DNA of 64,000 bases, from positions 1 through 64,000 of the forward strand of contig JAHJHI010000046.1 of the NCBI GenBank assembly GCA_018824085.1, in the 5' to 3' direction. Shown piece after piece: positions 13,751 to 47,522 of the stretch. The notes beneath the pieces were generated by a model, which was not told the DNA's origin, did not search any database, and saw only the letters and a program-made list of their open reading frames with translations. Every line of letters starts with the position of its first letter. The stretch's first letter is position 1. This DNA comes from Gammaproteobacteria bacterium. Lineage in GTDB: Bacteria > Pseudomonadota > Gammaproteobacteria > Burkholderiales > Rhodocyclaceae. The position numbers and the translations under genes are program-made.

Positions 13751-13764
13751 GGCGGCGCAACGGT

Positions 13765-16041: not shown

Positions 16042-16119
16042 ATTGTCCACACGGCGCCGCGGCACGAGAATGCAGCCTCGCGCCTCATTGGCGCACACAC
16101 AAAATCAGAGGAGCGTCTC

Positions 16120-31919: not shown

Positions 31920-32008
31920 GCCGCGGGGCTGGGGCGGAACTCGGGAAGGCGTGATGGTACTTGTTTGGACAGCCGGCCGCGAGCAGGGACGACGCGCCGG
32001 CGGGCCGC

Positions 32009-33118: not shown

Positions 33119-33533
33119 TCGGGAAGCTTTTCCGGGCGTGGCACGGCGAACATCGGCTTCGCCGGGGCCGGCGAAGGATTGCCCGCTGGACGCGCGGGCT
33201 TGGCGACGCTGATTCTAGCCGACCCGTCGGGCGCCATGCGGCCCGGGCCACGCCCGCGCGCAACGTCCGCGCACGCTGGCACCGCTCTTGCGGTATCCGG
33301 CAGGTCGCCGTGTTCCGGACGGCGCGGTGCGCCGCCATTCACGCACCGCATCGGTGCGCAAACGGCGCGCTGGCGCGACCTGCCAGCCCGGGCGCATCGT
33401 TCGGCGCCCGTGGGCGCGGTTGCGGCGACACGACCGAAGAACGGACTCCGTGCTCCGAATACCGGACGCCGCCACCCGCCAACCCGCGCAGCCGGCCCGC
33501 CCGGCCCTGCCCGACAGATCAGGACTGCCGACC
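33119..33533. other. 415-bp divergent intergenic region
   Basis: The gap lies between the AI-2E-type gene (minus) and the porin gene (plus). It contains one clear signal, a sigma-54 promoter at 33277-33291 pointing at the porin. The roughly 230 bp after that promoter has GC-rich sequence without a convincing gene, and would form a long untranslated leader. Confidence 0.6.
33277..33291 (+). promoter_or_regulatory. Sigma-54 promoter toward the amide-porin paralogue
   Basis: TGGCAC-CGCTC-TTGC matches the -24/-12 consensus TGGCAC-N5-TTGC exactly. It faces the porin gene 243 bp downstream. Sigma-54 use predicts activation by an enhancer-binding protein, such as NtrC under nitrogen limitation. No enhancer site was recognised. 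Confidence 0.65.
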
Positions 33534-34688
33534 ATGACACCCCGCCGCAACACCCGTCCGCGATGGACGCCGCACACCACCCGCACGCTGCTCGCTGCCG
33601 CCCTCCTCGGCGGAGGGGGCGCCCAGGCGCAGACGACACTCACCGGGCCGGGCGACAGCTCGCTGACGCTGGGCCTGTGGCTGCGCACGTCCTATGTCAT
33701 CGAGGAAACGGAGCGCCCGGACGGTCGCCGCGCACACGACAGTGGCGTCACGATGGATTCCGTGCGCCTGCTGTCGTCGGCGAAATTCACGCGCCGCCTC
33801 GGCGCGACGCTCACCTTCGAACGCCCGCCGTCGGCGGACATGCAGTTGCTGGACGCCATCCTGCAGTTCGAAGCGGCCGACGGCGTGAATCTGTGGCTCG
33901 GCCGGCTGGTGCCGCCGACCGACCGCTCGAACATGGCCGGCAACCAGTTTGCCAATGTGTGGGGCTATCCGCGCGTATCGCTGTATCCGAACGCCTTCAC
34001 CGGCCGCGATGACGGCGTGCTGCTGTGGGGCAATCTGTTAGGCGACCGGCTGCTGTACGGCATCGGAGCGTTCGAGGGCAAGAACCGCGGGCGCGGCCTG
34101 TCCAACGACTCGAACGATCCGCTGTTCGCGGCGCGCGTCGCGTGGAGCTTTCTCGATCCCGAGCCCGGCTATTACGGCACCAGCACCTACTATGGACAGA
34201 AGGAGGTGTTCACGCTCGGCGCCGCCTGGCTGAGCCAGAAGAACGGCGTCGGTCTGGCCGGCGCGCGCGGCGACTATCGCGCGTGGAACATCGACGCGCT
34301 GTTCGAGCACCGGTTGCCGGGCGCTGGCGTGGTGACCGTCGAAGGCGCCTGGTACGACTACGACACCGACGGCGTGGCCGATGTCGCCCCCGCCGATCCG
34401 CTGTGCGCACGCGTGGGCAACTGCGGCGGCGCCGTGCCGGCAACGGCCTTCCTGCTGACCGCCGCCTACCTGATTCCGGCCAGGACAGGCATCGGCCAAC
34501 TGCAACCCTATGTGCGCCTCCAGCGGTTCGAACCGGATGCCGGTGCCCGCGTCGATCAGCGGGACGCCGGCGTGAACTACGTGATATCGGGCCACAACGC
34601 CCGCATCACCGCCGTGTATTCAAGCATCGACACGGACGGTGCAAGGCGGCTCGACCGCGTCGTGCTCGGCCTGCAGCTTCTTTATTGA
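33534..34688 (+). CDS. Outer-membrane porin, FmdC-like paralogue
   Basis: 384-aa beta-barrel porin. Signal region HTTRTLLAAALLGGGGAQAQ, then TLTGPGDSSLTLGLWLRTSY. Characteristic segments: GVNLWLGRLVPPTDRSN, YPNAFTGRDDGVLLWGN, GIGAFEGKNRGRGLSND and PGYYGTSTYYGQKEVF; it ends LGLQLLY with a terminal aromatic. The same segments recur in the porin at 46058, so the two are recent paralogues that flank the amide system. It is related to FmdC of Methylophilus amide uptake. The start is the ATG at 33534; a sigma-54 promoter lies upstream. The function in amide or urea entry is inferred from the family and context. Confidence 0.8.
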   Translation: MTPRRNTRPRWTPHTTRTLLAAALLGGGGAQAQTTLTGPGDSSLTLGLWLRTSYVIEETERPDGRRAHDSGVTMDSVRLLSSAKFTRRLGATLTFERPPSADMQLLDAILQFEAADGVNLWLGRLVPPTDRSNMAGNQFANVWGYPRVSLYPNAFTGRDDGVLLWGNLLGDRLLYGIGAFEGKNRGRGLSNDSNDPLFAARVAWSFLDPEPGYYGTSTYYGQKEVFTLGAAWLSQKNGVGLAGARGDYRAWNIDALFEHRLPGAGVVTVEGAWYDYDTDGVADVAPADPLCARVGNCGGAVPATAFLLTAAYLIPARTGIGQLQPYVRLQRFEPDAGARVDQRDAGVNYVISGHNARITAVYSSIDTDGARRLDRVVLGLQLLY

Positions 34689-34698: not shown

Positions 34699-35613
34699 TC
34701 AGTCGGTGACCGCGCGCATCGCGAGCGCGGCCGCCGCGGCGCGCGTCTCCACGCCGAGCTTTTCGTAGATGTGCTCCAGGTGCTTGTTCACGGTGCGCGG
34801 GCTCATGCCGAGAATGTCGCCGATGTCGCGGTTGGTCTTGCCCTTGGCCAGCCATGACAGCACCTCCGCCTCGCGCGGCGTCAGCTGCGCGCCGGCGATG
34901 CGCGTGGCCGATTCGCCGCGCCGGCGCACGTCGAGCAGCAGCATGTGCTCGCCCAGCCCGACCGCGCCCAGGCTGCGCGCGTACAGCGCGTGTTCGCCGC
35001 GTTCCTCGATCAGTTGCGCCTCGACCGCCTGGTCTCCGGCCAGCCCGGCCGCGTTGCGCAGCCACTCGCCCGGCGGCGACGCCGTGGTGTCGAGCCCGAA
35101 TTGCGACAGGTTTTCCGCGGCCCTCGGCGAGCGCCACGCGATGCGCCCCATGTTGTCGATCACCAGCACGCCCAGCCCGGCCACGTCCACCGCCTGGCGC
35201 GCGATGCGCACCGCGCGGGCGTTGCGCACGTGGGCCTGCAGGCGCGCGAGCACTTCTTCCACCCGCAGCGGCTTGACGACGTAGTCGGTGCCGCCGGCCG
35301 TGAAGCCCTGCACCACCTCGGCCGTGCCGGACAGACCGGTCATGAAGATGACCGGCACATGCGCCAGCCCCGGCTCCTCGCGGATGAGGCGGCAGGTTTC
35401 GAAGCCGGACATGCCGGGCATGACGGCGTCGAGCAGGATGGCGTCCGGCACGACAAGTTCGAGCCGGGCCAGCGCCGACGCGCCGTCGTTGGCGATGAGC
35501 ACGAGGTAGCCGGCCTGCGACAGCGCGCTGCACAGGAAGCCGAGCGAGTCGGGCGCGTCGTCGACCACCAGCACGACGGGCTGGAAGGAAGGATCAGAGA
35601 GCATGGGCGTCAC
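34699..35613 (-). CDS. LuxR-type response regulator with internal PAS-like domain
   Basis: 304-aa regulator. The receiver (about 12-130) has VVLVVDDAPDSLGFL, phospho-Asp in AILLDAVMPGMSG, and KPLRVEE. A middle PAS-like segment (LGVLVIDNMGRIAWRSP) follows, then a LuxR helix-turn-helix: LTPREAEVLSWLAKGKTNRDIGDILGMSPRTVNKHLEHI. Its start (35613, or ATG at 35604) overlaps the stop of the big hybrid kinase, so the two are cotranscribed and should form one signalling pair. It is the likely regulator of the amide operon and porins. Confidence 0.85.
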   Translation of the reverse strand: MTPMLSDPSFQPVVLVVDDAPDSLGFLCSALSQAGYLVLIANDGASALARLELVVPDAILLDAVMPGMSGFETCRLIREEPGLAHVPVIFMTGLSGTAEVVQGFTAGGTDYVVKPLRVEEVLARLQAHVRNARAVRIARQAVDVAGLGVLVIDNMGRIAWRSPRAAENLSQFGLDTTASPPGEWLRNAAGLAGDQAVEAQLIEERGEHALYARSLGAVGLGEHMLLLDVRRRGESATRIAGAQLTPREAEVLSWLAKGKTNRDIGDILGMSPRTVNKHLEHIYEKLGVETRAAAAALAMRAVTD

Positions 35614-38600
35614 GTTGCAGCAATTCGGTGAATCGTATGAGGTCGAAACCGTCTATCAGCGCGCGCAGTCTGCGGCAATCCGCGCGCGCCGCCTCGGAAC
35701 GTTCGGCAATCGCGTCGAGCAGCGTGGCGATGCCATTCACGTGCCCGAGGCGGGACAGGCGCAGCAGCGCCGCGCGCTCGTCGTCGTCCAGCGCACCCAG
35801 GGGCCGGTCGGCATCGCCTGCCGCGTCCTGCGCCGCCGACGGCGCGACCGGAAGATCCACCACCCAGGTCAGGTCCAGCGCGTCGCGCAGCTGGTCGAGC
35901 AGTTCGGACTCCATGACCGGCTTGGGCACGAAGCCGGCACACCCGGCCGCGCGCAGCAATTCGCTGCGATTGTCGAACACGTTGGCCGACACCATGATGA
36001 CCGGTATCGGCTCGCCGTCGAATTCGCGCAGACGGCGCGCGACGTCCCAGCCATCCATGCCATCCATGTTGATGTCCAGCAGCACCACGTCGGGGCGCGC
36101 CCGCGCCACGCATTCCAGCCCCTCGCGGCCGCTCGCCGCCTCACCGACATCGAAGCCGAGCGGCGACAGCATGCCGGCCAGCATGTGGCGCTGCGTCGCG
36201 TCGTCGTCGACCAGCAGCACGCGCCGGCGCACGCCGTCGTAGCCGACGACCTGCCGGTTCGGCCGGGCCGACACCTGCGCCGTCAGATACTCCGGCAGAT
36301 AGAGCCGCAGGCGGAAGGTGCTGCCGCGCCCCGGTTCGCTGGCGAGCGTGAGCTCGCCGCCCATCAGCGAACTGAGCATGCGGCTGATGCTCAGCCCCAG
36401 ACCGGTGCCGGGTTCGGCGACGGTACGCCCGCTGCTGCTGCGCTCGAACGGCATGAAGATGCGCGCGTGGTCTTCCTCGGCGATGCCCGGGCCGGTGTCG
36501 GCGATCTCGAAGCGGGCCACCTCCATGCGGTAATCCACGCGCAGCACCACCTCGCCGCGCGCGGTGAATTTCACGGCATTGCCGAGCAGGTTGATCAGCA
36601 CCTGCCGCAGCCGCTTCACGTCCACCCGCACGTAGTCGGGCATGCGCCCGGTGTGTTCGATGCGAAAGCCCAGCCCCTTGCGCGCGGCCTGCGGCTCGAA
36701 CATCTTCGCCAGATCGTCGAGCAGCTCGCGCATCGGCATCGGCGACGGGTCGAGCCGCAGCTTGCCGGCTTCGATGCGCGCCAGATCGAGCAGGCCGTCT
36801 ATCAGTCCGAGCAGGTGCTCGCCGCTGCGCAGTATCGTCGCCAGCGCGCGGCGCTGCGATTCGCCCTGCCCCGCTTCGCGCAGCAGGATCTGTGCATAGC
36901 CCAGGATGCTGTTGAGCGGCGTACGCAGCTCGTGGCTGATGCCGGTCACGTAGCGCGTCTTCGCCAGATTGGCCGATTCGGCGGCGTCCTTCGCCTTCTG
37001 CAGCGCGATGTCGGTGCGGTGGTGCGCCTCGATCTCGCGCATCAGCAACTGGTTCTGGCGGTTCGATTCGTCCTGCGCCATGCGCCGGCTCTCCGAGCCG
37101 AGCACGATCCACCAGGCGCACACCGCGCACAGCAGCACCAGCAACGCGAAGGTCTTCTGCAGGGTGAGCTGCAGGCTTTCGCGCGCGTCGGGATACAGGC
37201 CGGACACGATGGCCTCCTGATAGAACACGACGCCGAATATCACGGCCAGCAGCACGGTCAGCGACAGGAACACGACGAGGAAGTGGCCGATGCGGAAGTT
37301 CACGCGCCGCGCGAGCCGCATCGGCAGGATCGCGTTGAGCACCGCGTGCAGCTGGTCGGCCGCACTGGCGTCGGTCTTGCAGCGGTCGTGGCAGCGCGAC
37401 TCCAGCGTGCAGCACAGCGAACAGATGGGCTGGCCGTAGGCCGGGCAGTGCGCCATGTCCTCGGACTCGAAACTGTTTTCGCAGACGAAGCAGGTCACCG
37501 TCTCACCCGGGCGCCACTGCGCGGTACCGCGGCGCGCAAGGTAGTAGCGGCCGCTCGTGGCCCAGGCGATCAGCGGCGCCGTGACAAAGGCGGTCGCGAG
37601 CGAAATGAGCGGCGAGAACGCCTGCGGCCCCTCGCCCATCCAGCCGGTGTAGGCAAGCACCGATACCAGCGTGGCAATGAGCATGGAGCCGAGGCCCACC
37701 GGATTGATCTCGTACAGGTGGGCGCGCTTGAATTCGATGTGTGACGGACTCAGGCCGAGCGGCTTGTTCACCACCAGATCGGCGACCAGCGCGCCGACCC
37801 ATGCGATCGCGAGATTGGCGTACAGGCCGAGCACGCGCTCCAGCGCCTCGAACACGCCGAGCAGCATCAGCAGCAGCGCGATGACCACGTTGAACACCAG
37901 CCACACGACGCGCCCGGGATGGCTGTGCGTGAGCCGGGCGAAGAAATTGGACCACGCGAGCGAGCCGGCGTAGGCATTGGTCACGTTGATCTTCAGCTGC
38001 GACACGATGACGAAGAAGGTGGTCACCGCGAGCACCACGGCCGGCGAATCGAACACGTAGGCGAAGCCCGCGAGATACATCTGGGTCGGTTCGACGGCGC
38101 GGTCCACCGGCACCAGCGACTGCAGCGCCAGAAAGGCCAGGAAGGCGCCGCCCAGCATCTTCACCATGCCCGGCACGATCCAGCCCGGACCGGCCACCAG
38201 CACGGCAGCCCACCAGCGCCGGCTGTTCTCGCGGTTCTTCTCCGGCAGGAAGCGCAGGTAATCGACCTGCTCGCCGATCTGCACCACCAGCGATATGGCC
38301 ACCGTCGCCGCGGCGCCGAACATGAGCCAGTTGAAGTCACTGCTGCCCGACGAACGCCCGGACAGCGAGGTGAACTGCGTGTACAGCTCCGGCGCCTGCC
38401 ACCACACGGCCACATAGGGCAGCACCAGCAACACGATCCAGATCGGCTGGGTCCACAGCTGGATGCGGCTGATCAGCGTGACGCCATGGATGACCAGCGG
38501 AATGACGACGACCGCGCACAGCAGGTAGGCCCATGCGATCGGGATGCCGAAATACATCTCGAAGGCGAGCGCCATGATGGCGGCCTCGATGGCGAAGAAG

Positions 38601-38986
38601 ATGAAGGTGAAGCTGGCGTAGACCAGCGACGTGATGGTCGAGCCGAGATAGCCGAAACCGGCGCCGCGCGTGAGCAGGTCCATGTCGAGACCGTATTTCG
38701 CGGCGCAATAGCTGATCGGCAGCCCGGTCAGGAAGGTGATGACACCGACCAGCAGGATGGCCCACAGCGCATTGGTGAAGCCGTAATTGAGTGCGATGGC
38801 GCCGCCGATGGCTTCCAGCGCCAGGAAGGACACGGCGCCGAAGGCGGTGTTGGCGACCCGCCACTCGGACCAGCGCCGGAAGCTGCGCGGCGTGTAGCGC
38901 AGCGCGTAGTCCTCGAGGGTTTCGGTCGCAACCCAGGTGTTGTAGTCGCGACGGATCTTGAAAATCTGCTGTGTGGCTTCTGACAT
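35594..38986 (-). CDS. Giant hybrid histidine kinase with complete NCS1-permease-type sensor
   Basis: About 1130-aa protein. Residues 1-480 form a 12-helix permease of the NCS1 cytosine/allantoin/hydantoin class (RRWSEWRVANTAFGAVSFLALE; GYLGSTITSLVYASFTFIFFA; QLKINVTNAYAGSLAWSNFF). Residues 497-537 are a Cys/His-rich cluster, CFVCENSFESED...CPAYG...CSLCC...CHDRC, probably zinc-binding. Two more helices (563-629) precede the kinase: His685 in GISHELRTP; HATPase with NLLGNAVKF and PGTGLGLSISR; receiver with phospho-Asp971 in VVLLDINMDG; then an 80-residue helical tail. ATG at 38986 is chosen because the N-terminus then matches NCS1 proteins. It is the kinase of the response-regulator pair and lies divergent to the amide operon. 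Confidence 0.88.
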   Translation of the reverse strand: MSEATQQIFKIRRDYNTWVATETLEDYALRYTPRSFRRWSEWRVANTAFGAVSFLALEAIGGAIALNYGFTNALWAILLVGVITFLTGLPISYCAAKYGLDMDLLTRGAGFGYLGSTITSLVYASFTFIFFAIEAAIMALAFEMYFGIPIAWAYLLCAVVVIPLVIHGVTLISRIQLWTQPIWIVLLVLPYVAVWWQAPELYTQFTSLSGRSSGSSDFNWLMFGAAATVAISLVVQIGEQVDYLRFLPEKNRENSRRWWAAVLVAGPGWIVPGMVKMLGGAFLAFLALQSLVPVDRAVEPTQMYLAGFAYVFDSPAVVLAVTTFFVIVSQLKINVTNAYAGSLAWSNFFARLTHSHPGRVVWLVFNVVIALLLMLLGVFEALERVLGLYANLAIAWVGALVADLVVNKPLGLSPSHIEFKRAHLYEINPVGLGSMLIATLVSVLAYTGWMGEGPQAFSPLISLATAFVTAPLIAWATSGRYYLARRGTAQWRPGETVTCFVCENSFESEDMAHCPAYGQPICSLCCTLESRCHDRCKTDASAADQLHAVLNAILPMRLARRVNFRIGHFLVVFLSLTVLLAVIFGVVFYQEAIVSGLYPDARESLQLTLQKTFALLVLLCAVCAWWIVLGSESRRMAQDESNRQNQLLMREIEAHHRTDIALQKAKDAAESANLAKTRYVTGISHELRTPLNSILGYAQILLREAGQGESQRRALATILRSGEHLLGLIDGLLDLARIEAGKLRLDPSPMPMRELLDDLAKMFEPQAARKGLGFRIEHTGRMPDYVRVDVKRLRQVLINLLGNAVKFTARGEVVLRVDYRMEVARFEIADTGPGIAEEDHARIFMPFERSSSGRTVAEPGTGLGLSISRMLSSLMGGELTLASEPGRGSTFRLRLYLPEYLTAQVSARPNRQVVGYDGVRRRVLLVDDDATQRHMLAGMLSPLGFDVGEAASGREGLECVARARPDVVLLDINMDGMDGWDVARRLREFDGEPIPVIMVSANVFDNRSELLRAAGCAGFVPKPVMESELLDQLRDALDLTWVVDLPVAPSAAQDAAGDADRPLGALDDDERAALLRLSRLGHVNGIATLLDAIAERSEAARADCRRLRALIDGFDLIRFTELLQRDAHAL

Positions 38987-39348
38987 CGGCGACTTGGGGA
39001 AAACGGCTCCCGGCACGCCATGCAAGAAACGCTCCGGGCAGCACAACGGCGCGCCGCCCGGAGCACAAGGTACAGCTTCCCTCCGCGCCGCCCCACCCGC
39101 GCACCAATCCGGGGCGCAAGCCACATCGTGGTGCAGTGCGTCAGCGCAGGATTCAACCTTAGCACCGATGCCCGCGGGCAGCCGGTGTTGCACTGCGCAG
39201 ACACATACGTCGATTGACGTATTCCGGCAGCCCCCTCCCAGCGACTAATTTTTGCACCGCAGCGAACCGGAGCGGAGCGACGCGTCGTGATGATCTTTCC
39301 GCCCGGTCCGCCTGAAGCTCCCCATCCATCCGTACAGGAGAACAGAAA
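38987..39348. other. Divergent intergenic region between sensor kinase and amide operon
   Basis: A 362-bp gap with no gene. On the kinase side, GCTCCGGGC (39031-39039) pairs with GCCCGGAGC (39056-39064), giving a 9-bp hairpin in the kinase 5' leader. On the operon side lies the 18-bp inverted repeat at 39205-39222. AGGAGA at 39338-39343 serves the first operon gene. Confidence 0.55.
39205..39222. promoter_or_regulatory. Perfect inverted repeat, likely response-regulator operator
   Basis: ATACGTCGATTGACGTAT has two perfect 7-bp arms (ATACGTC/GACGTAT) around GATT. Such TACG...CGTA dyads are typical LuxR/NarL-type response regulator sites. It lies 127 bp before the fmdD start and 219 bp before the kinase start, placing it where the adjacent regulator could control both directions. 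Confidence 0.55.
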
Positions 39349-40623
39349 ATGGCTGACAAGAAAGACCCGATCCAGGCGCCGCTTACCGACACCCAGCGTC
39401 GCAAGATGCTGATGGGCATGGCCTCCGCACCGGCGCTGATGATGCCCGCCATGACGTGGGCGAACGCCGCGCAATACCCGACGGCCAAGGTGAATACCAC
39501 CAAGCTCGCGGTGACGGATACCGAGGTCGTCGTAGGTCAGCTTCACTCCGCCACCGGCACGATGGCGATTTCGGAAACCGGGTCGATCCAGGCCGAACAG
39601 CTGGCCATCGACCAGATCAACGCCATGGGCGGCGTGCTCGGCCGCAAGATCCGCGTGATCAAGGAAGACGGCGCGTCCGACTGGCCGACCTTCGCCGAGA
39701 AGTCCAAGAAGCTGCTGGTGCAGGACCACGTCGCGTGCGTGTTCGGCTGCTGGACGTCGGCGTCGCGCAAGGCCGTGCTGCCGATCTTCGAGAAGGAAAA
39801 CGGGATGCTCTACTACCCGACCTTCTACGAAGGACTGGAGCAGTCGAAGAACGTCATCTATACCGGCCAGGAAGCCACGCAGCAGATCCTGTTCGGTCTG
39901 GACTGGGCGTCCAAGGAGAAGAAGGCAAAAACCTTCTTCCTGGTCGGCTCCGACTACATCTGGCCGCGTACCTCGATGAAGATCGCCCGCAAGCACATCG
40001 AAGGTCACCTGCGGGCCAGCAGCGTCGTCGGCGAGGAGTACTACCCGCTCGGCCACACCAACTTCAATTCGCTGATCAACAAGATCAAGCTTAAGAAGCC
40101 TGACGTCATCTTCGCCGCCGTCGTCGGCGGCTCCAACGTCGCCTTCTACAAGCAGCTCAAGGCGGCCGGCATCACCGCGTCCAAGCAGTTCCTGCTGACC
40201 ATCTCGGTGACGGAGGACGAAGTGCTCGGCATCGGCGGCGAAAACATCGCCGGCTTCTACTCCTCGATGAAGTACTTCCAGTCGCTCGACAACCCGAACA
40301 ACAAGGCCTTCGTGGAAGCGTTCAAGAAGGCCTACGGACCGAAGTCGGTCATCGGCGACGTGACGCAGGCGGGCTATCTCGGCCCCTGGATCTGGAAGGC
40401 CACGGTCGAGAAGGCGGGCAGCTTCGACGTCGACAAGATCGCCGCCGCCTCCGGTGGCATCGAGCTCAAGACCGCGCCGGAAGGCTACGTCAAGGTGCAC
40501 GACAACCATCACCTGTGGAGCCGCGCGCGCATCGGCATGGCGCAGGCGGACGGCCAGTTCAAGGTCGTCGCCGAGTCGCCCGAGCTGATCCAGCCGGATC
40601 CGTTCCCCAAGGGCTACCAGTAA
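39349..40623 (+). CDS. fmdD: Periplasmic amide/urea-binding protein of ABC transporter (FmdD/UrtA-like)
   Basis: 424-aa substrate-binding protein of the UrtA/LivJ group. The N-terminus carries QRRKMLMGMASAPALMMPAM, a twin-arginine-like signal cleaved near WANAAQ. The two-lobe core shows VVGQLHSATGTMAISETGS, INAMGGVLGRKIRVIKEDGASDWPTF, VFGCWTSASRKAVLPIFE and LYYPTFYEG, all close to the urea/short-chain amide branch. It starts an operon with two permeases and two ATPases followed by formamidase, matching the fmdCDEF amide uptake genes of Methylophilus. Formamide, acetamide or urea are candidate ligands. Confidence 0.9.
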   Translation: MADKKDPIQAPLTDTQRRKMLMGMASAPALMMPAMTWANAAQYPTAKVNTTKLAVTDTEVVVGQLHSATGTMAISETGSIQAEQLAIDQINAMGGVLGRKIRVIKEDGASDWPTFAEKSKKLLVQDHVACVFGCWTSASRKAVLPIFEKENGMLYYPTFYEGLEQSKNVIYTGQEATQQILFGLDWASKEKKAKTFFLVGSDYIWPRTSMKIARKHIEGHLRASSVVGEEYYPLGHTNFNSLINKIKLKKPDVIFAAVVGGSNVAFYKQLKAAGITASKQFLLTISVTEDEVLGIGGENIAGFYSSMKYFQSLDNPNNKAFVEAFKKAYGPKSVIGDVTQAGYLGPWIWKATVEKAGSFDVDKIAAASGGIELKTAPEGYVKVHDNHHLWSRARIGMAQADGQFKVVAESPELIQPDPFPKGYQ

Positions 40624-40747
40624 TACCCCGGGCCGCACCGCCTGCGTCCGCCACGCGCGCGCAGGACGGCGCGGCCCCCACCGATGCGGGTTGCGCGCGC
40701 GCCGTCACGGCGTGCGCCGCCCGGTTCAAGCAACGCCGGAGATCGCC

Positions 40748-41662
40748 ATGTCATTCACCGATATCACCAACATTGCCCTGATGCAGGGTTTTGCGGGGCT
40801 GAGCCTGTTTGCGGTGCTGCTGCTGATGGGTCTCGGGCTCGCCATCATTTTCGGACAGATGGGTGTCATCAACATGGCGCATGGCGAGTTCATGACCATT
40901 GGTGCCTACACCATCTACATGTTCTCGACGCTGACCGAGACCTACCTGCCCGGCTTCGTGTCGGCCTACTTTCCGGTCGCCATCATCGCGGCCTTCTTCA
41001 TCGCATTCGTATTCGGCTGGATTGTCGAGTGGGCGCTGATACGCCATCTCTACAAGCGGCCGCTGGACACGCTGCTCGCCACCTGGGGCCTGTCGCTGGC
41101 CATGCAGCAGACCTTCCGCTCGGTGTTCGGCGCGCGTGAAGTGAGCCCGACGCTGCCCGACTGGCTGCTCGGCTCCTGGGCGCCGGCCGAAGGCCTGGAC
41201 ATCCCGATCAACGGCATGTTCGTGCTCGGCCTCACCGCTGTCGTGACCGGCGGCGTGCTGCTCGCGCTGTACCGCTCGCGCTGGGGCTTGCGCGTGCGTG
41301 CCACCGTTGCCAACCGCCCGATGGCCAATGCAACCGGCATCAACACCAAGCGCACCGACCGCCTCACCTACGCCATCGGCTGCGGCATCGCCGGTGTTGC
41401 CGGCGCGGCCTTCACGACGATCGGCTCGACCGGCCCGACCAGCGGTTCGCTGTACATCGTCGATGCCTTCCTGGTCGTGACCTTCGGCGGCGCGGGTTCG
41501 CTGCTCGGCACCGTCGCCTCGGCTTTCGGCATCGCCCAGACGCAATCGATCGCGGAGTTCTTCCTGACCGGCTCGATGGCCAAGGTGCTCACGCTGCTGC
41601 TCATCGTGACCATCCTGATGATCCGTCCGCAAGGTCTGTTCGCCTCGAAGATCCGCCGCTGA
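40748..41662 (+). CDS. fmdE: ABC transporter permease, LivH/UrtB type
   Basis: 304-aa inner-membrane permease with about eight helices, LivH/UrtB class. Signatures: LFAVLLLMGLGLAIIFGQMGVINMAHGEFMTIGAYT, the LivH hallmark near residues 21-56; YKRPLDTLLATWGLSLAMQQ; and the closing VTFGGAGSLLGTVASAFGIAQTQ and LLLIVTILMIRPQGLFA. It pairs with the next permease to form the channel. Homologue of FmdE/FmdF in Methylophilus; which of these two names belongs to which permease here is not certain. Short 38-bp gap to the next gene. Confidence 0.87.
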   Translation: MSFTDITNIALMQGFAGLSLFAVLLLMGLGLAIIFGQMGVINMAHGEFMTIGAYTIYMFSTLTETYLPGFVSAYFPVAIIAAFFIAFVFGWIVEWALIRHLYKRPLDTLLATWGLSLAMQQTFRSVFGAREVSPTLPDWLLGSWAPAEGLDIPINGMFVLGLTAVVTGGVLLALYRSRWGLRVRATVANRPMANATGINTKRTDRLTYAIGCGIAGVAGAAFTTIGSTGPTSGSLYIVDAFLVVTFGGAGSLLGTVASAFGIAQTQSIAEFFLTGSMAKVLTLLLIVTILMIRPQGLFASKIRR

Positions 41663-41700
41663 GCGCGCATCCAGACCATTCCAATCCCCGGGAGATTCAC

Positions 41701-42894
41701 ATGAACGCACTCAAGATCTGGATCGGAAAGAGCGGGCTGGGCAGCGTGCTCATCCTCGCCCTGATCATCCTCGTCGTGTTTCCGCTGACGATGGACCTGT
41801 TCCGTCTCAACCTCGTCGGCAAATACCTCACCTACGGCTTCGTCGCCGTCGGCCTGGTCATGCTGTGGGGCTACGGCGGCGTACTCAGCCTCGGCCAGGG
41901 CGTGTTCTTCGGCCTTGGCGGCTACATGATGGCGATGTTCATGAAGCTCGAAGCATCGGATCCGGTCACCACCAAGATCCAGAGCACGCCGGGCATTCCC
42001 GACTTCATGGACTGGAACCAGATCACCGAACTGCCGTTCTGGTGGGAGCCGTTCCGCCACCTGCCGCTCGCGCTGATCGCGGTACTGCTGGTGCCGACGC
42101 TGCTCGCCTTCATCATCAGCTACGCGATGTTCAAGCGCCGGGTCGGCGGCGTGTATTTCGCCATCATCACGCAGGCGGTCGCGCTGATCATGACCGTGCT
42201 CATCATCGGTCAGCAGGGCTACACCGGCGGCGTGAACGGCATCACCGACCTGAAGACGATGCTGGGCTGGGACACCCGCGAGGACACCGCCAAGTACATC
42301 CTGTACTTCGTCAATGGCGGCCTGCTCATCGGCGCCATCCTGCTGTGCCGCTGGATCCAGATGTCCAAGCTCGGCACGCTGCTGCTGGCCATGCGCGACA
42401 AGGAAGACCGGGTGCGCTTCTCCGGTTACGACGTGTCGATGTTCAAGGTGTTCGCCTTCTGTCTGGCCGCGATGCTGTCGGCCATCGGCGGCGCCATGTT
42501 CACGCTGCAGGTCGGCTTCATGTCGCCGTCGTTCGTCGGCATCGTGCCGTCGATCGAGATGGTCATCTTCGCCGCGGTCGGCGGGCGCATGTCACTGGTC
42601 GGCGCGGTGTACGGAACGCTGCTGGTCAATTTCGGCAAGACCTACTTCTCGGAAAGCTTCCCCGACCTCTGGCTGTTCCTGATGGCCGCGCTGTTCATCG
42701 GCGTCGTGCTCGCCTTCCCGAACGGACTCGCGGGCCTGTACGAAAGCCATGTGAAGCCGCTGTTCGGCCGCCGCAAGGCGAAGCCCGAAACCACCGCTGC
42801 GCCAGGCGACGGCACACCCCACACATCCACCGGCGGCAAGCCGCTCAGCCGCGGCGCGCCGATCTCCGGCGACGTGCAGGGCCAGTCGGCCTGA
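41701..42894 (+). CDS. fmdF: ABC transporter permease, LivM/UrtC type
   Basis: 397-aa permease of the LivM/UrtC class. It shows YLTYGFVAVGLVMLWGYGGVLSLGQGVFFGLGGYMMAM (the LivM hallmark), an elongated periplasmic insert with DFMDWNQITELPFWWEPF seen in UrtC, and AAVGGRMSLVGAVYGTLLVNFGKTYFSESFPDLW near the end. A hydrophilic C-terminal tail of about 45 residues follows (GRRKAKPETTAAPGDG...). Works with the LivH-type gene upstream and the two ATPases downstream. Confidence 0.87.
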   Translation: MNALKIWIGKSGLGSVLILALIILVVFPLTMDLFRLNLVGKYLTYGFVAVGLVMLWGYGGVLSLGQGVFFGLGGYMMAMFMKLEASDPVTTKIQSTPGIPDFMDWNQITELPFWWEPFRHLPLALIAVLLVPTLLAFIISYAMFKRRVGGVYFAIITQAVALIMTVLIIGQQGYTGGVNGITDLKTMLGWDTREDTAKYILYFVNGGLLIGAILLCRWIQMSKLGTLLLAMRDKEDRVRFSGYDVSMFKVFAFCLAAMLSAIGGAMFTLQVGFMSPSFVGIVPSIEMVIFAAVGGRMSLVGAVYGTLLVNFGKTYFSESFPDLWLFLMAALFIGVVLAFPNGLAGLYESHVKPLFGRRKAKPETTAAPGDGTPHTSTGGKPLSRGAPISGDVQGQSA

Positions 42895-42930
42895 GCCCCC
42901 GTACCGGCGAACCGACCGAAAGGAACAACC

Positions 42931-43674
42931 ATGAGCAATACCGATTTCGTGCTGGCGGTGGAAGACCTCACCGTGTCCTTCGACGGCTTCAAGGCGATCG
43001 ACGCGCTGACGCTGTACGTCGATCGCGGCGAGCTGCGCGTGATCATCGGACCGAACGGCGCCGGCAAGACGACGCTGCTCGACCTGATCTGCGGCAAGAC
43101 GCGCGCCAGCGCCGGCAGCATCAAGTTCAAGAACGTTGAAATGACCAAGCTGCAGGAACACAAGATCGTGCGCGCCGGCATCGGCCGCAAGTTCCAGACG
43201 CCGTCGATCTACGAAAACCTGTCCGTGTTCAAGAACCTGGAGGTGTCCTTCCCGCGCGGTCGCAGCGTGTTCGGCGCGCTCGGCTTCCGGTGCACCGACG
43301 AGGTGCGCGAGCGCGTGCAGTCGGTGGCCGACGAGATCGGCCTGGGCGACGCGCTGGATGTCGAAGCCGGCCTGCTGAGCCACGGCCAGAAGCAGTGGCT
43401 GGAGATCGGCATGCTGCTGATGCAGGAGCCGGAGCTGCTGATGCTCGACGAACCGATCGCCGGCATGAGCGTGCGCGAGCGCGAACTGACGGCCGAGCTG
43501 CTGGCGCGCATCTGCAAGGGCCGCTCGGTGATCGTCATCGAGCACGACATGGATTTCGTCAAGCGCATCGCCCACAAGGTCACCGTCATGCACCAGGGAA
43601 AGATCCTCGCGGAAGGATCGATGGACAAGGTGCAGAACGATCCCAAGGTCATCGACGTTTATCTCGGCCACTGA
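42931..43674 (+). CDS. urtD: ABC transporter ATPase UrtD type
   Basis: 247-aa ATP-binding subunit of the branched-chain/urea class. Walker A is GPNGAGKTTLL, the ABC signature LLSHGQKQWLEIGMLLM, Walker B ELLMLDEPIAG, and the switch His is in VIVIEHDMDFV. The phrase GIGRKFQTPSIYENLSVFKNLEV is diagnostic of UrtD-like subunits. AAGGA precedes the ATG. Energises import of the amide or urea ligand. Confidence 0.88.
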   Translation: MSNTDFVLAVEDLTVSFDGFKAIDALTLYVDRGELRVIIGPNGAGKTTLLDLICGKTRASAGSIKFKNVEMTKLQEHKIVRAGIGRKFQTPSIYENLSVFKNLEVSFPRGRSVFGALGFRCTDEVRERVQSVADEIGLGDALDVEAGLLSHGQKQWLEIGMLLMQEPELLMLDEPIAGMSVRERELTAELLARICKGRSVIVIEHDMDFVKRIAHKVTVMHQGKILAEGSMDKVQNDPKVIDVYLGH

Positions 43675-43715
43675 GTCCGGCACGCCGGATCACGACTCCA
43701 ACCAAGGACATCATC

Positions 43716-44405
43716 ATGCTCAACGTCAAGGACGTACACGTCGCCTACGGCCAGAGCGAGGCACTGCATGGCGTTTCGTTCGAAGCAAACAGGAACGAAA
43801 CGGTCGCCATCATGGGCCGCAACGGCATGGGCAAGACCACGCTGTTCAAGTCGCTCATCGGCATCCTGCCGCTGAAGAGCGGCCACATCGAAGTCGCCGG
43901 CAAGGAAGTGTCGAAGGACGAGAGCTTCCAGCGCGTCGCCAAGGGCATCGCCTACGTGCCGCAGGGCCGGATGATTTTCCCGACGCTCACGGTCGAGGAA
44001 AACATCCAGACCGGCCTGGAAAACGCGAAGGTGAAGAAGGTGCCGGACGACATCTACGCGCTGTTCCCGGTGCTGTGGGAGATGCGTCGCCGCAAGGGCG
44101 GCAACCTCTCCGGCGGCCAGCAGCAGCAGCTCGCCATCGCCCGCGCGCTGGTGACCGACCCCAAGGTGCTGCTGCTCGACGAGCCGACCGAGGGCATCCA
44201 GCCGTCAATCATCAAGGACATCGCGAAGGCGCTCAACGAGATCCGCAAGTTGCGCGAAATCACCATCGTCGTGTCCGAGCAGGTCCTCAGTTTCGCCATG
44301 GACGTGGCCGACCGGCTGTTCGTCATCGAAGGCGGACGCCTCGTCCATGAAAGCACGCGCGCCGACACGGATACCGCGCGCATCAAGCAGTTCCTGTCCG
44401 TCTGA
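43716..44405 (+). CDS. urtE: ABC transporter ATPase UrtE type
   Basis: 229-aa second ATPase. Walker A GRNGMGKTTLFKSLIG, signature NLSGGQQQQLAIARAL, Walker B VLLLDEPTEGIQPSIIKD and the LivF/UrtE-typical YVPQGRMIFPTLTVEENI are all present. Start ATG at 43716 gives the standard N-terminus LNVKDVHVAYGQSEALHG. It completes the five-subunit importer and is 26 bp from the formamidase gene. Confidence 0.88.
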   Translation: MLNVKDVHVAYGQSEALHGVSFEANRNETVAIMGRNGMGKTTLFKSLIGILPLKSGHIEVAGKEVSKDESFQRVAKGIAYVPQGRMIFPTLTVEENIQTGLENAKVKKVPDDIYALFPVLWEMRRRKGGNLSGGQQQQLAIARALVTDPKVLLLDEPTEGIQPSIIKDIAKALNEIRKLREITIVVSEQVLSFAMDVADRLFVIEGGRLVHESTRADTDTARIKQFLSV

Positions 44406-44431
44406 CCGCCGTCCAATCAAAGGAGATAAAC

Positions 44432-45664
44432 ATGGCTGAGACCCTGATCAAGGTCGACCTGAAGCAGTCGCCGTACGACAACGACATGGTGCACAACCGC
44501 TGGCACCCGGACATCCCCATCGTCACGTGGGTCAAGCCGGGCGACGACTTCAAGATCGAAACGTATGACTGGACCGGCGGCTACATCCAGAACAACGACA
44601 GCGCGGACGACGTGCGCGACGTCGACCTCACGACGGTGCACTTCCTGTCCGGCCCGATCGGCGTCGAAGGCTGCGAGCCGGGCGACCTGCTGGTGGTCGA
44701 CATCCTCGACATCGGCGCCAAGGAAGACAGCCTGTGGGGCTTCAACGGCTTCTTCTCGAAGAAGAACGGCGGCGGCTTCCTGACCGAACACTTCCCGCTC
44801 GCGCAGAAATCGATCTGGGACATCAAGGGCATGTTCACCGAATCGCGCCACGTGCCGGGCGTGAAGTACGCCGGCCTGATCCACCCCGGGCTCATCGGCT
44901 GCCTGCCGGACCCGAAGCTGCTCGAAGAGTGGAACAAGCGCGAGATCGACTTCATCAACACCGATCCGGACCGCGTACCGGCACTCGGCTGCCCGCCGTG
45001 CGCACCGACCGCACACATGGGCCGCCTCAAGGGCGAAGCGCGCGACAAGGCCGCGATGGAGGGCGCTCGCACGGTGCCGCCGCGCGAACACGGCGGCAAC
45101 TGCGACATCAAGGACCTGTCGCGTGGCTCGCGCATCTATTTCCCGGTCTATGTGAAGGGCGGCGGCCTGTCGATGGGCGACCTGCACTTCTCGCAGGGCG
45201 ACGGTGAAATCACCTTCTGCGGCGCCATCGAAATGGCCGGCTGGCTGCACCTGCGCGTGTCGCTGATCAAGGACGGCATGAAGAAGTACGCGGTGAAGAA
45301 CCCGATGTTCAAGCCGAGTCCGATCACGCCCAAGTACGACGACTACCTCATCTTCGAAGGCATTTCGGTCGACGAGTACGGCAAACAGCACTACCTCGAC
45401 GTGCATGTGGCCTACCGCCAGGCCTGCCTGAACGCGATCGAATACCTGAAGAAGTTCGGCTACTCCGGCGCCCAGGCCTATTCCATCCTCGGCACCGCGC
45501 CGGTGCAGGGCCACATCAGCGGCGTGGTCGACATTCCGAACGCCTGCGCAACGCTGTGGCTGCCGACCGACATCTTCGACTTCGACATCATGCCGAACGA
45601 GGCCGGGCCGGTGAAATTCCTCGACGGCAGCATCCAGATGCCGATCTCCGAAGACGTCGCCTGA
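44432..45664 (+). CDS. fmdA: Formamidase
   Basis: 410-aa acetamidase/formamidase (FmdA/AmdA) family member that hydrolyses formamide to formate and ammonia. Diagnostic parts: VDLKQSPYDNDMVHNRWHPDIP, the VGPIGVEGCEPGDLLVVDILD-type segment (FLSGPIGVEGCEPGDLL), the Cys-containing LGCPPCAPTAHMGRL and HGGNCDIKDLSRGSRIYFPV, and GDLHFSQGDGEITFCGAIE, which provide the metal and catalytic residues in this family. Length equals Methylophilus FmdA. Cytoplasmic. AAAGGAGA is the ribosome-binding site. It joins transport to ammonium release. Confidence 0.94.
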   Translation: MAETLIKVDLKQSPYDNDMVHNRWHPDIPIVTWVKPGDDFKIETYDWTGGYIQNNDSADDVRDVDLTTVHFLSGPIGVEGCEPGDLLVVDILDIGAKEDSLWGFNGFFSKKNGGGFLTEHFPLAQKSIWDIKGMFTESRHVPGVKYAGLIHPGLIGCLPDPKLLEEWNKREIDFINTDPDRVPALGCPPCAPTAHMGRLKGEARDKAAMEGARTVPPREHGGNCDIKDLSRGSRIYFPVYVKGGGLSMGDLHFSQGDGEITFCGAIEMAGWLHLRVSLIKDGMKKYAVKNPMFKPSPITPKYDDYLIFEGISVDEYGKQHYLDVHVAYRQACLNAIEYLKKFGYSGAQAYSILGTAPVQGHISGVVDIPNACATLWLPTDIFDFDIMPNEAGPVKFLDGSIQMPISEDVA

Positions 45665-45674
45665 GGACGCTGCC

Positions 45675-46004
45675 ATGCCGACCTACGACTATCAATGCAC
45701 GTCGCATGGCAGCTTCTCGGCCATGCGCAGCATCGCCCAGCGCGACGCGCCCTGCCTGTGCCCGGACTGCGGCAGCCCCGCCTCCCGCGTGCTGGTGGCC
45801 GCGCCGTCCTTCGCCGACATGCCGGGCCAGTTGCGCACGGCCCACGCCACCAATGAACGCAGCCGTCACGAGCCGAAGCTGGCCAGCCGCAGCCACGGCC
45901 CCGGCTGTTCGTGCTGCAGCGGCAAACCGAGTCGTACCACCGCCGTCGCCCGCGACGGTTCCAAAGCCTTCCCAACGAAGCGCCCCTGGATGATCAGTCA
46001 CTGA
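45675..46004 (+). CDS. fmdB: FmdB zinc-ribbon protein
   Basis: 109-aa FmdB family protein, start MPTYDYQCTSHGSFSAMRSI. The zinc ribbon uses Cys8-x2-His11 and Cys29-x2-Cys32 (DAPCLCPDCGSPASRVL); the first half-site has His where most members have Cys. The C-terminal half has a second cysteine group, GCSCCSG. FmdB is thought to regulate formamidase expression in Methylophilus and other bacteria. It starts 10 bp after fmdA, so it is in the same operon. Confidence 0.85.
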   Translation: MPTYDYQCTSHGSFSAMRSIAQRDAPCLCPDCGSPASRVLVAAPSFADMPGQLRTAHATNERSRHEPKLASRSHGPGCSCCSGKPSRTTAVARDGSKAFPTKRPWMISH

Positions 46005-46057
46005 TCACCGCAACCACAGCCCCTCAGCCCCTTTTTATCAACCCGGGAGTCAGCACC

Positions 46058-47206
46058 ATGAACAACACCACGAAAACCCGCAGCCGCCACGTCGCTCCGC
46101 GCCTCGGCGCGCTTGCGCTGGCACTTGCCGCCGCTGGCACAGCCAACGCGGGCGTCACCGTCGCCGGCCCCGGCGACAGCTACCTCACGCTCGGCCTGTG
46201 GATGCGCACGTCCTACACGAGCGCAGAGGACGCGGCACCCAACGGCAGCTCGCGCTCCAACGACTTCGCCGTCGATTCGATCCGGATCATCACCAGCGGC
46301 AAGCTCACAAAGAGCATCGGCGGCATGGTGAACTTCGAGCGCCAGTCGGACGAATCGATGCGCCTGCTCGACGTGGTGGCCCAGTTCGAACTGACGGAAG
46401 GCATCAATCTGTGGTTCGGCCGCATGCTGCCGCCGACCGACCGCGCCAACCTGGCCGGCCCCTTCTTCGCCAACGTGTGGGAATACCCGGGCGTGTCGCA
46501 GTACCCGAACGCCTTCACCGGCCGCGACGACGGTGCGCTGCTCTGGGGCAACGTGATGGACAGCAAGCTGCTGTATGCCATCGGCGCCTTCCAGGGCAAG
46601 AACCGCGGCACCGGCCTGTCCAACGATTCGGACGAGCTGCTGTACGCCGGCCGCCTCGCCTACAGCTTCCTCGACGCCGAGCCGGGCTACTACGGCACCA
46701 ACAGCTACTTCGGCGAGAAGAACCTGTTCACCGTCGGCGCCACCTTCCAGACGCAGAAGAACGGCGTGGGCACGGCGCTGGCCAAGGGCGACTACACCGC
46801 GTGGAACCTCGATGCGCTGTTCGAGACGAAGCTCGCCGGCGGCGGCGTGGTGACGCTGGAAGGCGCCTACTACGACTACGACACCGATGGCGTCACCGAC
46901 GTGGCGAACACCAATGTCCTGTGCTCGGGCATCAACAACTGCGGCGGCGCAACGGAAGGCACCGCCTACCTCGTGACCGCCGCCTACCTGATTCCGGGCA
47001 CCTACGGCATCGGCCAGTTCCAGCCCTACGTCCGCTACCAGGAGTTCGATCCGGAAGTCGGTTCGACGACCGACCAGTGGGACTTCGGCGTGACCTATGT
47101 GATGAAGGGCCACAACGCGCGCATCACCGCGGTGTACTCCGACATCGACCCGGGTGCGGCCGCCTCGACCGACAAGTTCATCGTCGGCGTGCAGCTGATG
47201 TACTGA
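46058..47206 (+). CDS. fmdC: Outer-membrane amide porin, FmdC-like
   Basis: 382-aa porin ending the operon. Signal peptide to about ANAGVT (RLGALALALAAAGTANAG), then VAGPGDSYLTLGLWMRTSY. Barrel segments match the porin at 33534: LWFGRMLPPTDRANLAGPFFANVWEYP, YPNAFTGRDDGALLWGNVMD, YGTNSYFGEKN, and the end FIVGVQLMY. FmdC of Methylophilus is a porin needed for amide uptake; the last-gene position differs from fmdC being first there. A terminator follows. Identity to the paralogue at 33534 is high across the barrel but not in signal peptide and loops. Confidence 0.85.
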   Translation: MNNTTKTRSRHVAPRLGALALALAAAGTANAGVTVAGPGDSYLTLGLWMRTSYTSAEDAAPNGSSRSNDFAVDSIRIITSGKLTKSIGGMVNFERQSDESMRLLDVVAQFELTEGINLWFGRMLPPTDRANLAGPFFANVWEYPGVSQYPNAFTGRDDGALLWGNVMDSKLLYAIGAFQGKNRGTGLSNDSDELLYAGRLAYSFLDAEPGYYGTNSYFGEKNLFTVGATFQTQKNGVGTALAKGDYTAWNLDALFETKLAGGGVVTLEGAYYDYDTDGVTDVANTNVLCSGINNCGGATEGTAYLVTAAYLIPGTYGIGQFQPYVRYQEFDPEVGSTTDQWDFGVTYVMKGHNARITAVYSDIDPGAAASTDKFIVGVQLMY

Positions 47207-47277: not shown

Positions 47278-47304
47278 GGGCACGCCGCGGCGTGCCCTTT
47301 TTTT
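47278..47304 (+). terminator. Intrinsic terminator of the amide operon
   Basis: GGGCACG (47278-47284) pairs with CGTGCCC (47291-47297) and is followed by seven T. It lies 72 bp after the porin stop. Confidence 0.85.
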
Positions 47305-47522
47305 GTCGGGACCGTGCCAGCCTGGGCGGTTGCGGCGAAGCGGGTCCGACGGAGCCGTCGACAGTCGCCCCCGGCCGCGCCGGACATGTGTCGGAGCGCG
47401 CTGCCGTTTCGTCAGCCATGGGTCGCCTGCGCGCCCGTCGCATTGACATCCGGGACACAGGCGGTTCAAGTCGGGGCCGTCATGTCCGATATATCGCCGA
47501 CAGCCACCCGGAACTCGCACCG
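47305..47522. other. Intergenic, no recognisable gene
   Basis: Between the operon terminator and the GGDEF-EAL gene. The sequence is open on the plus strand but has no protein-like character. No clear promoter was seen. Confidence 0.5.

Follow-up and report, generated by a model that had tools for sequence, protein, structure and literature searches.

The 64,000-nucleotide stretch of DNA analysed here (the window) raises the question of what turns on an amide-utilisation operon, and whether a kinase that has a permease for a sensor does so. In this Methyloversatilis genome, a LuxR-type response regulator and an 1130-aa hybrid histidine kinase lie divergent from a urtABCDE-fmdA-fmdB-porin operon (Table 1). 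We propose that the two proteins form a two-component system that would detect short-chain amides (urea in sister clades) and switch on amide uptake and hydrolysis, a reading to which we give a probability of about 0.77.

Table 1 Features of the amide-utilisation locus (positions in the window)
Feature	Position	Strand	Basis
Second, related porin	about 33534..34688	+	ORF; just outside the block, convergent with the regulator
Response regulator	34699..35613	-	REC (PF00072 81.7 bits) and LuxR HTH (PF00196 68.8 bits)
Hybrid histidine kinase, 1130 aa, NCS1-type permease as sensor domain	35594..38986	-	HisKA, HATPase_c, Response_reg
Eight-cysteine cluster between permease and kinase	37379..37492	-	Conserved alignment columns
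NCS1-type permease domain, about residues 1-482	37540..38986	-	hhalign, AlphaFold, Foldseek
Palindromic operator (predicted) TACGTC-GATT-GACGTA	39206..39221	.	Perfect match, divergent promoter region
urtA-type substrate-binding protein (amide/urea type)	39349..40623	+	TIGR03407 526.6 bits, cut-off 492.75
urtB-type ABC permease	40748..41662	+	TIGR03409 396.7 bits
urtC-type ABC permease	41701..42894	+	TIGR03408 444 bits
urtD-type ABC ATPase	42931..43674	+	TIGR03411 379.8 bits
urtE-type ABC ATPase	43716..44405	+	TIGR03410 337.4 bits
fmdA, formamidase	44432..45664	+	NF045496 equivalog 767.8 bits (cut-off 500); PF03069 598.5 bits
fmdB-like zinc-ribbon protein (RPWMISH domain)	45675..46004	+	TIGR02605 51.1 bits, NF053663 147.5 bits
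Outer-membrane porin, last gene of operon	46058..47206	+	ExtI-porin profile 125.8 bits, below cut-off 150

Every gene that the sequence-only reading had placed in this divergent layout (regulator, kinase, five ABC transporter genes, formamidase, FmdB and porin) is present. The second porin with which it closed the block also exists, but just beyond the left end of the block, behind the regulator gene; this porin has an equivalent position in the same-genus loci L031 and L068, and the operon-end porin in ten same-genus loci. In Pfam searches the kinase carries HisKA (73 bits), HATPase (99.5) and C-terminal receiver (82.6) domains, which make it a hybrid histidine kinase, and the receiver and LuxR-type helix-turn-helix domains of the neighbouring protein make that a NarL/FixJ-type response regulator. 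The start Met of the kinase lies at 38986, and its gene overlaps that of the regulator by 20 bases at the 3' end. A promoter scan of the divergent region found no sigma-70-like or terminator-like site.

The products of all five urt genes score above the NCBIfam urea-transporter cut-offs. With an FmdA formamidase, FmdB and a binding-protein ABC transporter, each above curated cut-offs, the operon is of the Methylophilus fmd type. Its porin was judged through ExtI, the only profile to match, rather than FmdC, to which ExtI is 19% identical (PMC5877670). The gene order amiE-fmdA-fmdB-urtABCDE has been reported (PMC13209695). For the fmdCABDEF cluster of Methylophilus methylotrophus, the excerpted source names no sensor kinase (PMC10781810), whereas the operon described here has a kinase-regulator pair and a palindrome attached.

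The sensor domain had been called an NCS1-type permease, a name that holds by profile comparison and structure and finds no support in Pfam. The Pfam NCS1 profile PF02133 has no match on the kinase or in the whole genome, and because it is silent on the kinase we named the domain by the other two methods. An hhalign comparison with six NCS1 proteins gave a probability of 97.7 (E 2.3e-12) over 394 colinear columns, against 0.1 (E 0.42) for a control with seven SSS proteins, and PF00474 has no match on the kinase. The AlphaFold model (pLDDT 83.4, pTM 0.81) shows about 12 membrane helices in the permease domain. The top five chains found by Foldseek in the PDB are all CodB or Mhp1, with TM-scores of 0.67-0.75 by target and 0.48-0.51 by query (655 aa, linker included), so that the modelled fold is LeuT-type and like those of CodB and Mhp1. 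PF02133 does match L228, a free-standing relative with about 30% identity, at 36.4 bits (cut-off 23.5); a PDB sequence search returned nothing useful for L228 or for the kinase. Together, the profile comparison, the AlphaFold model and this relative show the kinase N-terminus to be NCS1-derived. By family matches alone, the neighbours of L228 are a CN-hydrolase, an AmiC/UrtA-like protein and an AmiR-N/ANTAR protein. As a query, its permease finds matches in 58 of 398 genomes, mostly the kinases themselves, with 8 other free-standing matches.

Such a domain might still transport as well as sense, as a true transceptor whose signal would come from turnover while it imports the amide. The model contains the whole NCS1 fold, and many core residues are invariant. 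CbrA likewise joins a transporter to a kinase, and a transceptor has been proposed there (PMC13022988). On the other hand, the two Na+-binding Thr of CodB (PMC9379551) are replaced in TM8, as read from the alignment rather than from a superposition, by Lys at position 321 (130/130) and Ile/Val at 322, leaving no pair of Thr/Ser. Three of the six aligned NCS1 proteins have Thr-Thr or Ser-Thr at these positions and one has Gly-Ile; in the other two the Thr pair falls at 319/320, positions that hold Gln/Glu and a hydrophobic residue in the kinases. Moreover, the permease domain is fused to a kinase in all 57 sampled copies, and the linked operon supplies its own ABC importer. We therefore consider a transceptor unlikely, although a proton-coupled cycle is conceivable, and favour a receptor role.

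To follow the kinase beyond this genome we sampled 398 genomes of the phylum, using tblastn labels to define urt and fmd neighbours, as the initial neighbourhood clustering undercounted these genes. The family is present in 52 of them, in 57 copies; among the matches listed, same-genus and family genomes also carry homologues. The sequence-only reading had asked for other genomes with such a kinase beside amide genes, and had named kinases lacking that link as evidence against itself. The phylum sample did not produce that contrary evidence: 39 of the 57 copies have amide genes and 17 have urea genes in the fetched stretch; the one unlinked copy lies on a 4.8-kb contig, too short to tell. The nearest amide or urea match is at most 3.2 kb away in 55 of the 56 linked copies. 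The gene association exceeds chance, since amide or urea genes accompany 56 of the 57 relatives and the response regulator 55.

A comparison within genomes agrees: UrtA or UreC is at most 25 kb from 21 of 33 such kinases, compared with 2 of 25 other hybrid kinases listed from the same genomes; for 11 of the remaining 12, no UrtA or UreC is on the same contig. Amide and urea genes are missing from the surroundings of two deep-branching relatives (L062, L063), and two genomes, G056 and G046 (82% complete), carry the kinase and gave no match to UrtA or urease alpha. A large sister clade of kinases is associated with urea instead of amides. Because loci from the same genus and duplicates (L070 and L081) are among our 174, counts over these are not independent, and the 57-copy sample is the fair count. 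Plasmid copies appear in 523 PLSDB records, 342 of them from Klebsiella, and pSymB of Sinorhizobium meliloti carries a copy of the urea type.

The recurrent neighbours that can be named are amide and urea genes. This argues against a cyclic ureide or nucleobase as ligand (hydantoin, allantoin or cytosine), with the amide genes acting downstream of it, as does the pocket. The CodB aromatic pair Trp108/Phe204 aligns to Phe119 (116/130) and, in a loose TM6 alignment, to Leu222; this TM6 position is aromatic in the six aligned NCS1 proteins and Leu in 127 of 130 kinase-family rows. Characterised bacterial NCS1 proteins, whose fold the domain shares, mostly take such rings as substrates, but the family can shift to an open-chain ligand, metformin (PMC13390362). 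Many neighbour clusters are unnamed, so a ureide gene could have been missed; even so, we find a ring ligand very improbable. For an amide or urea ligand, a candidate selectivity position emerged post hoc: residue 288 is Glu in 84% of 69 amide rows and Asp/Asn in all four urea clades, and was the only one among the filtered columns to differ in every urea clade.

Between permease and kinase lies a linker which, in the alignment and the AlphaFold model, consists of an eight-Cys cluster and a two-helix hairpin, and which has no Pfam match over cut-off in a library that may not include a STAC model. The Cys columns (488, 491, 503, 511, 514, 515, 521 and 525) are invariant among 32 sequences, and 521 and 525 are nearly so across 57. 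The cluster is probably cytoplasmic and metal-binding. This raises the alternative that the cue is not an amide at all, and that the Cys let the kinase respond to nitrogen or redox/metal state, with the permease mainly a membrane anchor. It would agree with one module serving both amide and urea loci, and with the Methylophilus fmd operon, which is also repressed by ammonia (PMC10781810). However, the invariance of the pocket (T116, E123, Q225, E228, Q229, K321 and N323; 130/130 in the alignment) seems beyond what an anchor would need, and permease and Cys cluster stay joined in two proteins whose kinase differs (L217, L226). A nitrogen or redox cue therefore appears unlikely to us, and we retain an amide as the probable ligand.

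A palindrome, TACGTC-N4-GACGTA, sits between the kinase and urtA. Palindromes of this 6-4-6 form are usual for NarL/FixJ-type regulators. Of 92 divergent regions, 60 contain the dyad, compared with no more than 5 in shuffles. The genome itself has two perfect copies, one before urtA and the other just upstream of the aliphatic amidase gene amiE on another contig. With this part of the predicted regulon in trans, the system is not fully self-contained, contrary to what had been claimed. Allowing one mismatch in this genome gives more matches to a reversed control pattern (13) than to the real one (4); genus-wide, perfect matches number 20 for the real pattern and 4 for the control. Among 107 sites with at most one mismatch, 80 lie between kinase and urtA, 25 precede fmdA, amiE, porin or urea-type urtA, and none lies inside a matched gene. 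A strict site occurs in 9 of 52 kinase genomes compared to 3 of 346 others, and in one of the nine (G162) it stands away from any gene queried.

The operator is rare at urea loci (5/40 at up to one mismatch). In loci lacking amide genes, the region upstream of the kinase gave weak GC-rich dyads (top 6/64, against no more than 5 in shuffles), and the regions upstream of urtA/ureA/ureD gave GCGCT/CTGCG dyads (12 and 11 of 48, against no more than 3 in shuffles). The site also varies with the regulator, whose recognition helix here holds Asn, the residue that accompanies the operator: the site is present in 66 of 75 loci with Asn, 0 of 14 with Asp and 0 of 5 with Thr, and most Asp/Thr loci show TACGC-N6-GCGTA instead. 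On the tree this pairing amounts to 3-4 independent pairs with none against, at a p not below 0.05.

These observations bear on whether FmdB or general nitrogen control runs the operon, with the kinase pair governing something else. The Methylophilus cluster is said to encode a putative positive regulator (PMC10781810), which would suit such control. Yet kinase, regulator and amide or urea genes stay together across the phylum, and the palindrome recurs in trans and differs with the regulator helix, which leaves this explanation highly improbable. The site common to the urtA, fmdA and amiE promoters suggests instead that the permease-kinase turns those genes on. The earlier proposal that an NCS1-type domain, by sensing or transporting an amide, switches on amide uptake and breakdown thus fits the predicted fold, the neighbourhoods across the phylum and this shared putative operator.

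In the mechanism that we infer, the NCS1-derived domain would use its former transport site to bind a small amide such as formamide or acetamide, or urea in sister clades, acting as a receptor rather than a transporter. The Cys cluster and hairpin may relay the movement to the kinase, and the kinase would phosphorylate the LuxR-type regulator of the overlapping gene, either via its own receiver or directly. The regulator would then bind the palindrome and activate, rather than repress, urtABCDE-fmdAB-porin, amiE elsewhere in the genome and possibly the operon that encodes the kinase and itself.

Amide-responsive control of an aliphatic amidase is known from AmiC/AmiR of Pseudomonas, which works by a cytosolic amide receptor and an antiterminator; that common ground apart, AmiC/AmiR uses no membrane kinase, in contrast to the present system. 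Transporter-kinase fusions are also already known (CbrA, CrbS, Ks-Amt5). The SLC5/STAC kinases (CbrA, CrbS, RpuS) resemble ours in joining a transporter domain of the LeuT-fold kind to a histidine kinase for nutrient-gene control (PMC13022988), but have an SSS domain and STAC linker in place of the NCS1-type domain, Cys cluster and hairpin. In Ks-Amt5, too, a transporter fold, there Amt rather than NCS1, was recruited as a nitrogen-source receptor, which binds its ligand without moving it efficiently (PMC5764959). Two loci can be likened to ours by description only, their excerpts noting neither a permease domain nor a function: one in Dechloromonas aromatica, where a histidine kinase of 1131 aa and a receiver of 308 aa are listed next to urt/ure genes (PMC2907700), and one in Ectopseudomonas guguanensis, with a hybrid kinase and LuxR regulator beside urtABCDE (PMC13296017). 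Among the open-licence PMC matches listed, the excerpts mention no NCS1-kinase fusion and no named fmd/urt sensor.

On balance, we lean towards seeing these kinases as an undescribed, widespread class of nitrogen sensor, in which an NCS1 permease would have become a Na+-independent, kinase-fused receptor for the amide group, with about four amide/urea switches on a preserved core pocket and a scattered regulon reached through a palindrome that co-evolves with one regulator residue. With the palindrome, the regulon can be predicted and the claim tested directly, and the amide and urea branches offer a natural series for testing ligand switching in such a receptor. If the proposal is true, NCS1 would be added to the short list of transporter folds known to have turned into receptors, and the kinase would supply the sensor that has been missing for the use of amides, and often of urea, in many Pseudomonadota, including nitrogen-fixing and methylotrophic genera.

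The sequence-only reading described an amide block in which a response regulator and a hybrid histidine kinase are divergent from ABC transporter, formamidase, FmdB and porin genes. All of these genes were present, with small corrections: the second porin falls just beyond the range assigned to the block (table). FmdA scores 767.8 bits against the formamidase equivalog model (cut-off 500), and all five ABC proteins pass urea-transporter models. A gene for a PAS-GGDEF-EAL protein lies directly 3' of the porin. Elsewhere in the window, an 818-aa open frame, which may be a chance frame, has no Pfam match at E 0.001, and a methyl-accepting chemotaxis signalling domain is fused directly to FIST domains.

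Coordinates of the features in the window, elsewhere in its genome and at other loci
Feature	Location	Coordinates	Strand	Remark
Open frame, 818 aa	window	30882-33338	minus	
Second porin	window	~33534-34688		
Response regulator, REC-LuxR	window	34699-35613	minus	overlaps kinase gene end by 20 bases
Hybrid histidine kinase, 1130 aa	window	35594-38986	minus	
Eight-cysteine segment	window	37379-37492	minus	between permease and kinase
Putative operator	window	39206-39221		TACGTCGATTGACGTA
urtA, urtB, urtC, urtD, urtE, fmdA, fmdB, porin	window		plus	divergent from kinase
PAS-GGDEF-EAL protein	window	47292-50006	plus	
Chemotaxis-FIST protein	window	60402-62480	minus	
UrtA/urease-alpha cluster	contig C31, own genome	1602-13418		
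Free-standing permease and neighbours	L228	8949-13984		
Deep-branching kinase	L062	7338-11525		
Deep-branching kinase	L063	1604-5368		
Permease-Cys module, other kinase	L217	8799-11456		
Permease-Cys module, other kinase	L226	8866-11502		
Plasmid copy	L263 (NZ_CP065035.1)	5879-16213		Klebsiella IncF plasmid

The sensor of the kinase had been taken for an NCS1-type permease, an assignment that our results support. Residues 1-660 match no Pfam family at E 0.001, and a PF02133 search of the window's own genome gave no match. When an alignment (A1) built from 32 sequences was compared with six NCS1 proteins of related genomes, it matched them with a probability of 97.7% (E 2.3e-12, 394 colinear columns), against 0.1% for seven SSS proteins. 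The AlphaFold model, for which the window's sequence was combined with those from named loci to give 57 in all, has a mean pLDDT of 83.4 and a pTM of 0.81, and its best five PDB chains in Foldseek are CodB and Mhp1 (TM-score 0.67-0.75 by target, 0.48-0.51 by query). One free-standing relative of 497 aa (L228), 28–34% identical to those kinases whose match to it spans 400 residues or more, passes PF02133 with 36.4 bits (cut-off 23.5). The profile match, the model, the PDB matches and this relative therefore show that the sensor domain is NCS1-derived. The L228 permease gene forms a series with those for a double CN-hydrolase, an AmiR-N/ANTAR protein and a binding protein that we read as AmiC/UrtA-like; the permease is perhaps an amide or nitrile transporter.

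Fusions of transporters to kinases are already known in CbrA, CrbS, RpuS and Ks-Amt5, so the present kinase is a variant among these, differing from them in transporter family, linker and predicted regulon. An NCS1-type kinase is not described among the literature matches listed, and the accessible parts of two reports carry, uncommented, a kinase and receiver of like size and place in Dechloromonas and Ectopseudomonas (PMC2907700, PMC13296017). Between the permease and the kinase stand eight conserved cysteines and then a two-helix hairpin. The cysteines are near-invariant, their segment has no Pfam match over cut-off, and it is possibly a metal-binding fold replacing the STAC linker of CbrA.

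We compared the pocket and Na+ site with CodB residues taken from the accessible part of PMC9379551, numbering by A1 columns (protein number = column + 11). The two Na+-holding threonines of CodB align with Lys321 (130/130 sequences) and Ile/Val322, and its TM6 aromatic with Leu222 (127/130). The register in TM8 is somewhat uncertain: of the six NCS1 rows, three carry a Thr/Ser pair at 321/322 and one carries Gly-Ile, while the other two place a Thr pair at 319/320, positions occupied in the kinases by Gln/Glu and a hydrophobic residue; the hydroxyl pair is kept in neither register. Thr116, Glu123, Gln225, Glu228, Gln229, Asn323 and Asn326 are invariant in all 130. As far as the alignment goes, the pocket would no longer be adapted to a flat ring or to Na+ coupling. 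A candidate for amide/urea specificity, picked post hoc, is column 288: 84% of the 69 amide rows carry Glu there, and each of the four urea clades carries Asp or Asn.

In a phylum sample, the domain is present in 52 of 398 genomes. It occurs there as 57 copies, each within an open frame no shorter than 894 aa; the one further match is L228. We examined all 57 neighbourhoods (53 fetched, L175-L227, plus the window, L038, L042 and L065). Across genomes the proposed link to amide genes held, with urea genes in their place at some copies: 39 copies lie near amide-type urtA or fmdA, 17 near urea-type urtA or urease, and one on a 4.8-kb contig. For 55 of 56 copies, no more than 3.2 kb separates the permease match from the nearest such match; for one, the distance is 6.5 kb. 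Counting only UrtA or UreC within 25 kb, 21/33 kinases qualify versus 2/25 other hybrid kinases among the matches listed from the same 29 genomes (Fisher p 1.4e-5); for 11 of the 33, the contig carries neither gene. The window's own genome (4.28 Mb, 56 contigs) has a separate UrtA/urease-alpha cluster on a contig other than the kinase's, with no perfect copy of the putative operator.

In a larger, redundant set of 174 loci, 106 are amide loci and 40 are urea loci, 4 have both kinds of gene and 24 have neither. Among these last, UrtA is 10-23 kb away in five, the contig ends no more than 6.3 kb from the domain in ten, and L140 has an AmiE-cluster gene; 17 of the 21 in the tree fall within the urea clade. 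In this FastTree phylogeny of 130 permease domains, the amide/urea labels need four changes. The deep-branching kinases L062 and L063 end in REC and Hpt, with neither amide nor urea genes nearby, and a search for UrtA and urease alpha found no match in the genome of L063 (G056) or in G046 (82% complete); these are real or possible exceptions to the linkage. The regulator is present in 55/57 copies and was not found at L217 and L226, where the same permease-Cys module precedes a different kinase without receiver, about 2 kb from fmdA. The module thus pairs with more than one kind of kinase.

The regions between kinase and urtA were compared in 92 loci, relatives not thinned: the window's own and others not belonging to the fetched genus set, with same-genus L081 included. 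The dyad TACGT-N6-ACGTA occurs in 60 of them; when two-base blocks were shuffled 20 times, no dyad exceeded 5. Allowing one mismatch to TACGTC-N4-GACGTA, 3.3 Mb of loci hold 107 sites: 80 between kinase and urtA, 25 before fmdA (16), amiE (3), porin (2) or urea-type urtA (4), and 2 elsewhere; none lies inside a gene matched by the queries. Such sites occur in 74/106 amide, 5/40 urea, 2/4 both and 2/24 neither loci.

The own genome has two perfect copies. One lies between kinase and urtA; the other, on contig C15, precedes the aliphatic amidase gene amiE (717 bits, cut-off 427) by about 64 bases. At one mismatch the reversed control is commoner there (13 versus 4 real), therefore only perfect sites are informative. 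Across 13 Methyloversatilis genomes, perfect sites number 20, against 4 for the control; the kinase/urtA site is found in all 13 (12 by fetched loci, G008 by coordinates) and a second in seven, the five of these fetched all lying before amiE. The strict site TACGTCRWWYGACGTA occurs in 12/398 genomes, 9/52 with the kinase versus 3/346 without (p 9.4e-7), and its reversed control in 3/398, none with the kinase. Of the 15 strict sites, 11 precede urtA, fmdA, amiE or urea-type urtA; the other four comprise three sites from genomes lacking the kinase and one from a kinase-bearing genome (G162).

The regulator's recognition helix appears from sequence to go with site type: the site lies between kinase and urtA in 66/75 loci with Asn, 0/14 with Asp and 0/5 with Thr, while TACGC-N6-GCGTA is found instead in 9/14 Asp and 4/5 Thr loci. 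Relatedness limits this pairing to 3–4 independent changes, too few for significance.

The kinase, regulator, urtABCDE and formamidase occur in the same arrangement on a Klebsiella IncF plasmid (L263), where the regulator, absent from the distributed gene table, was found by tblastn, and where the interval from kinase to urtA contains a one-mismatch site (one Klebsiella record examined). The domain is found in 523 plasmid records, 342 from Klebsiella; 305 of the 523 are typed conjugative.

An amide-sensing mechanism would fit two systems: the Methylophilus fmd operon, induced by formamide and urea with no sensor named in the accessible part of the source (PMC10781810), and a locus, in a P. veronii strain able to use acetamide and formamide, that is said in the part available to contain neither amiC nor amiR (PMC13209695). 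In the mechanism that we consider most likely, a short-chain amide, the putative ligand, would bind the permease domain, and the resulting change would reach the kinase via the cysteine cluster and the two-helix hairpin. The LuxR-type regulator, predicted to bind the palindrome, would then turn on both uptake, through urtABCDE and the porin, and hydrolysis, through fmdA here and amiE in trans.
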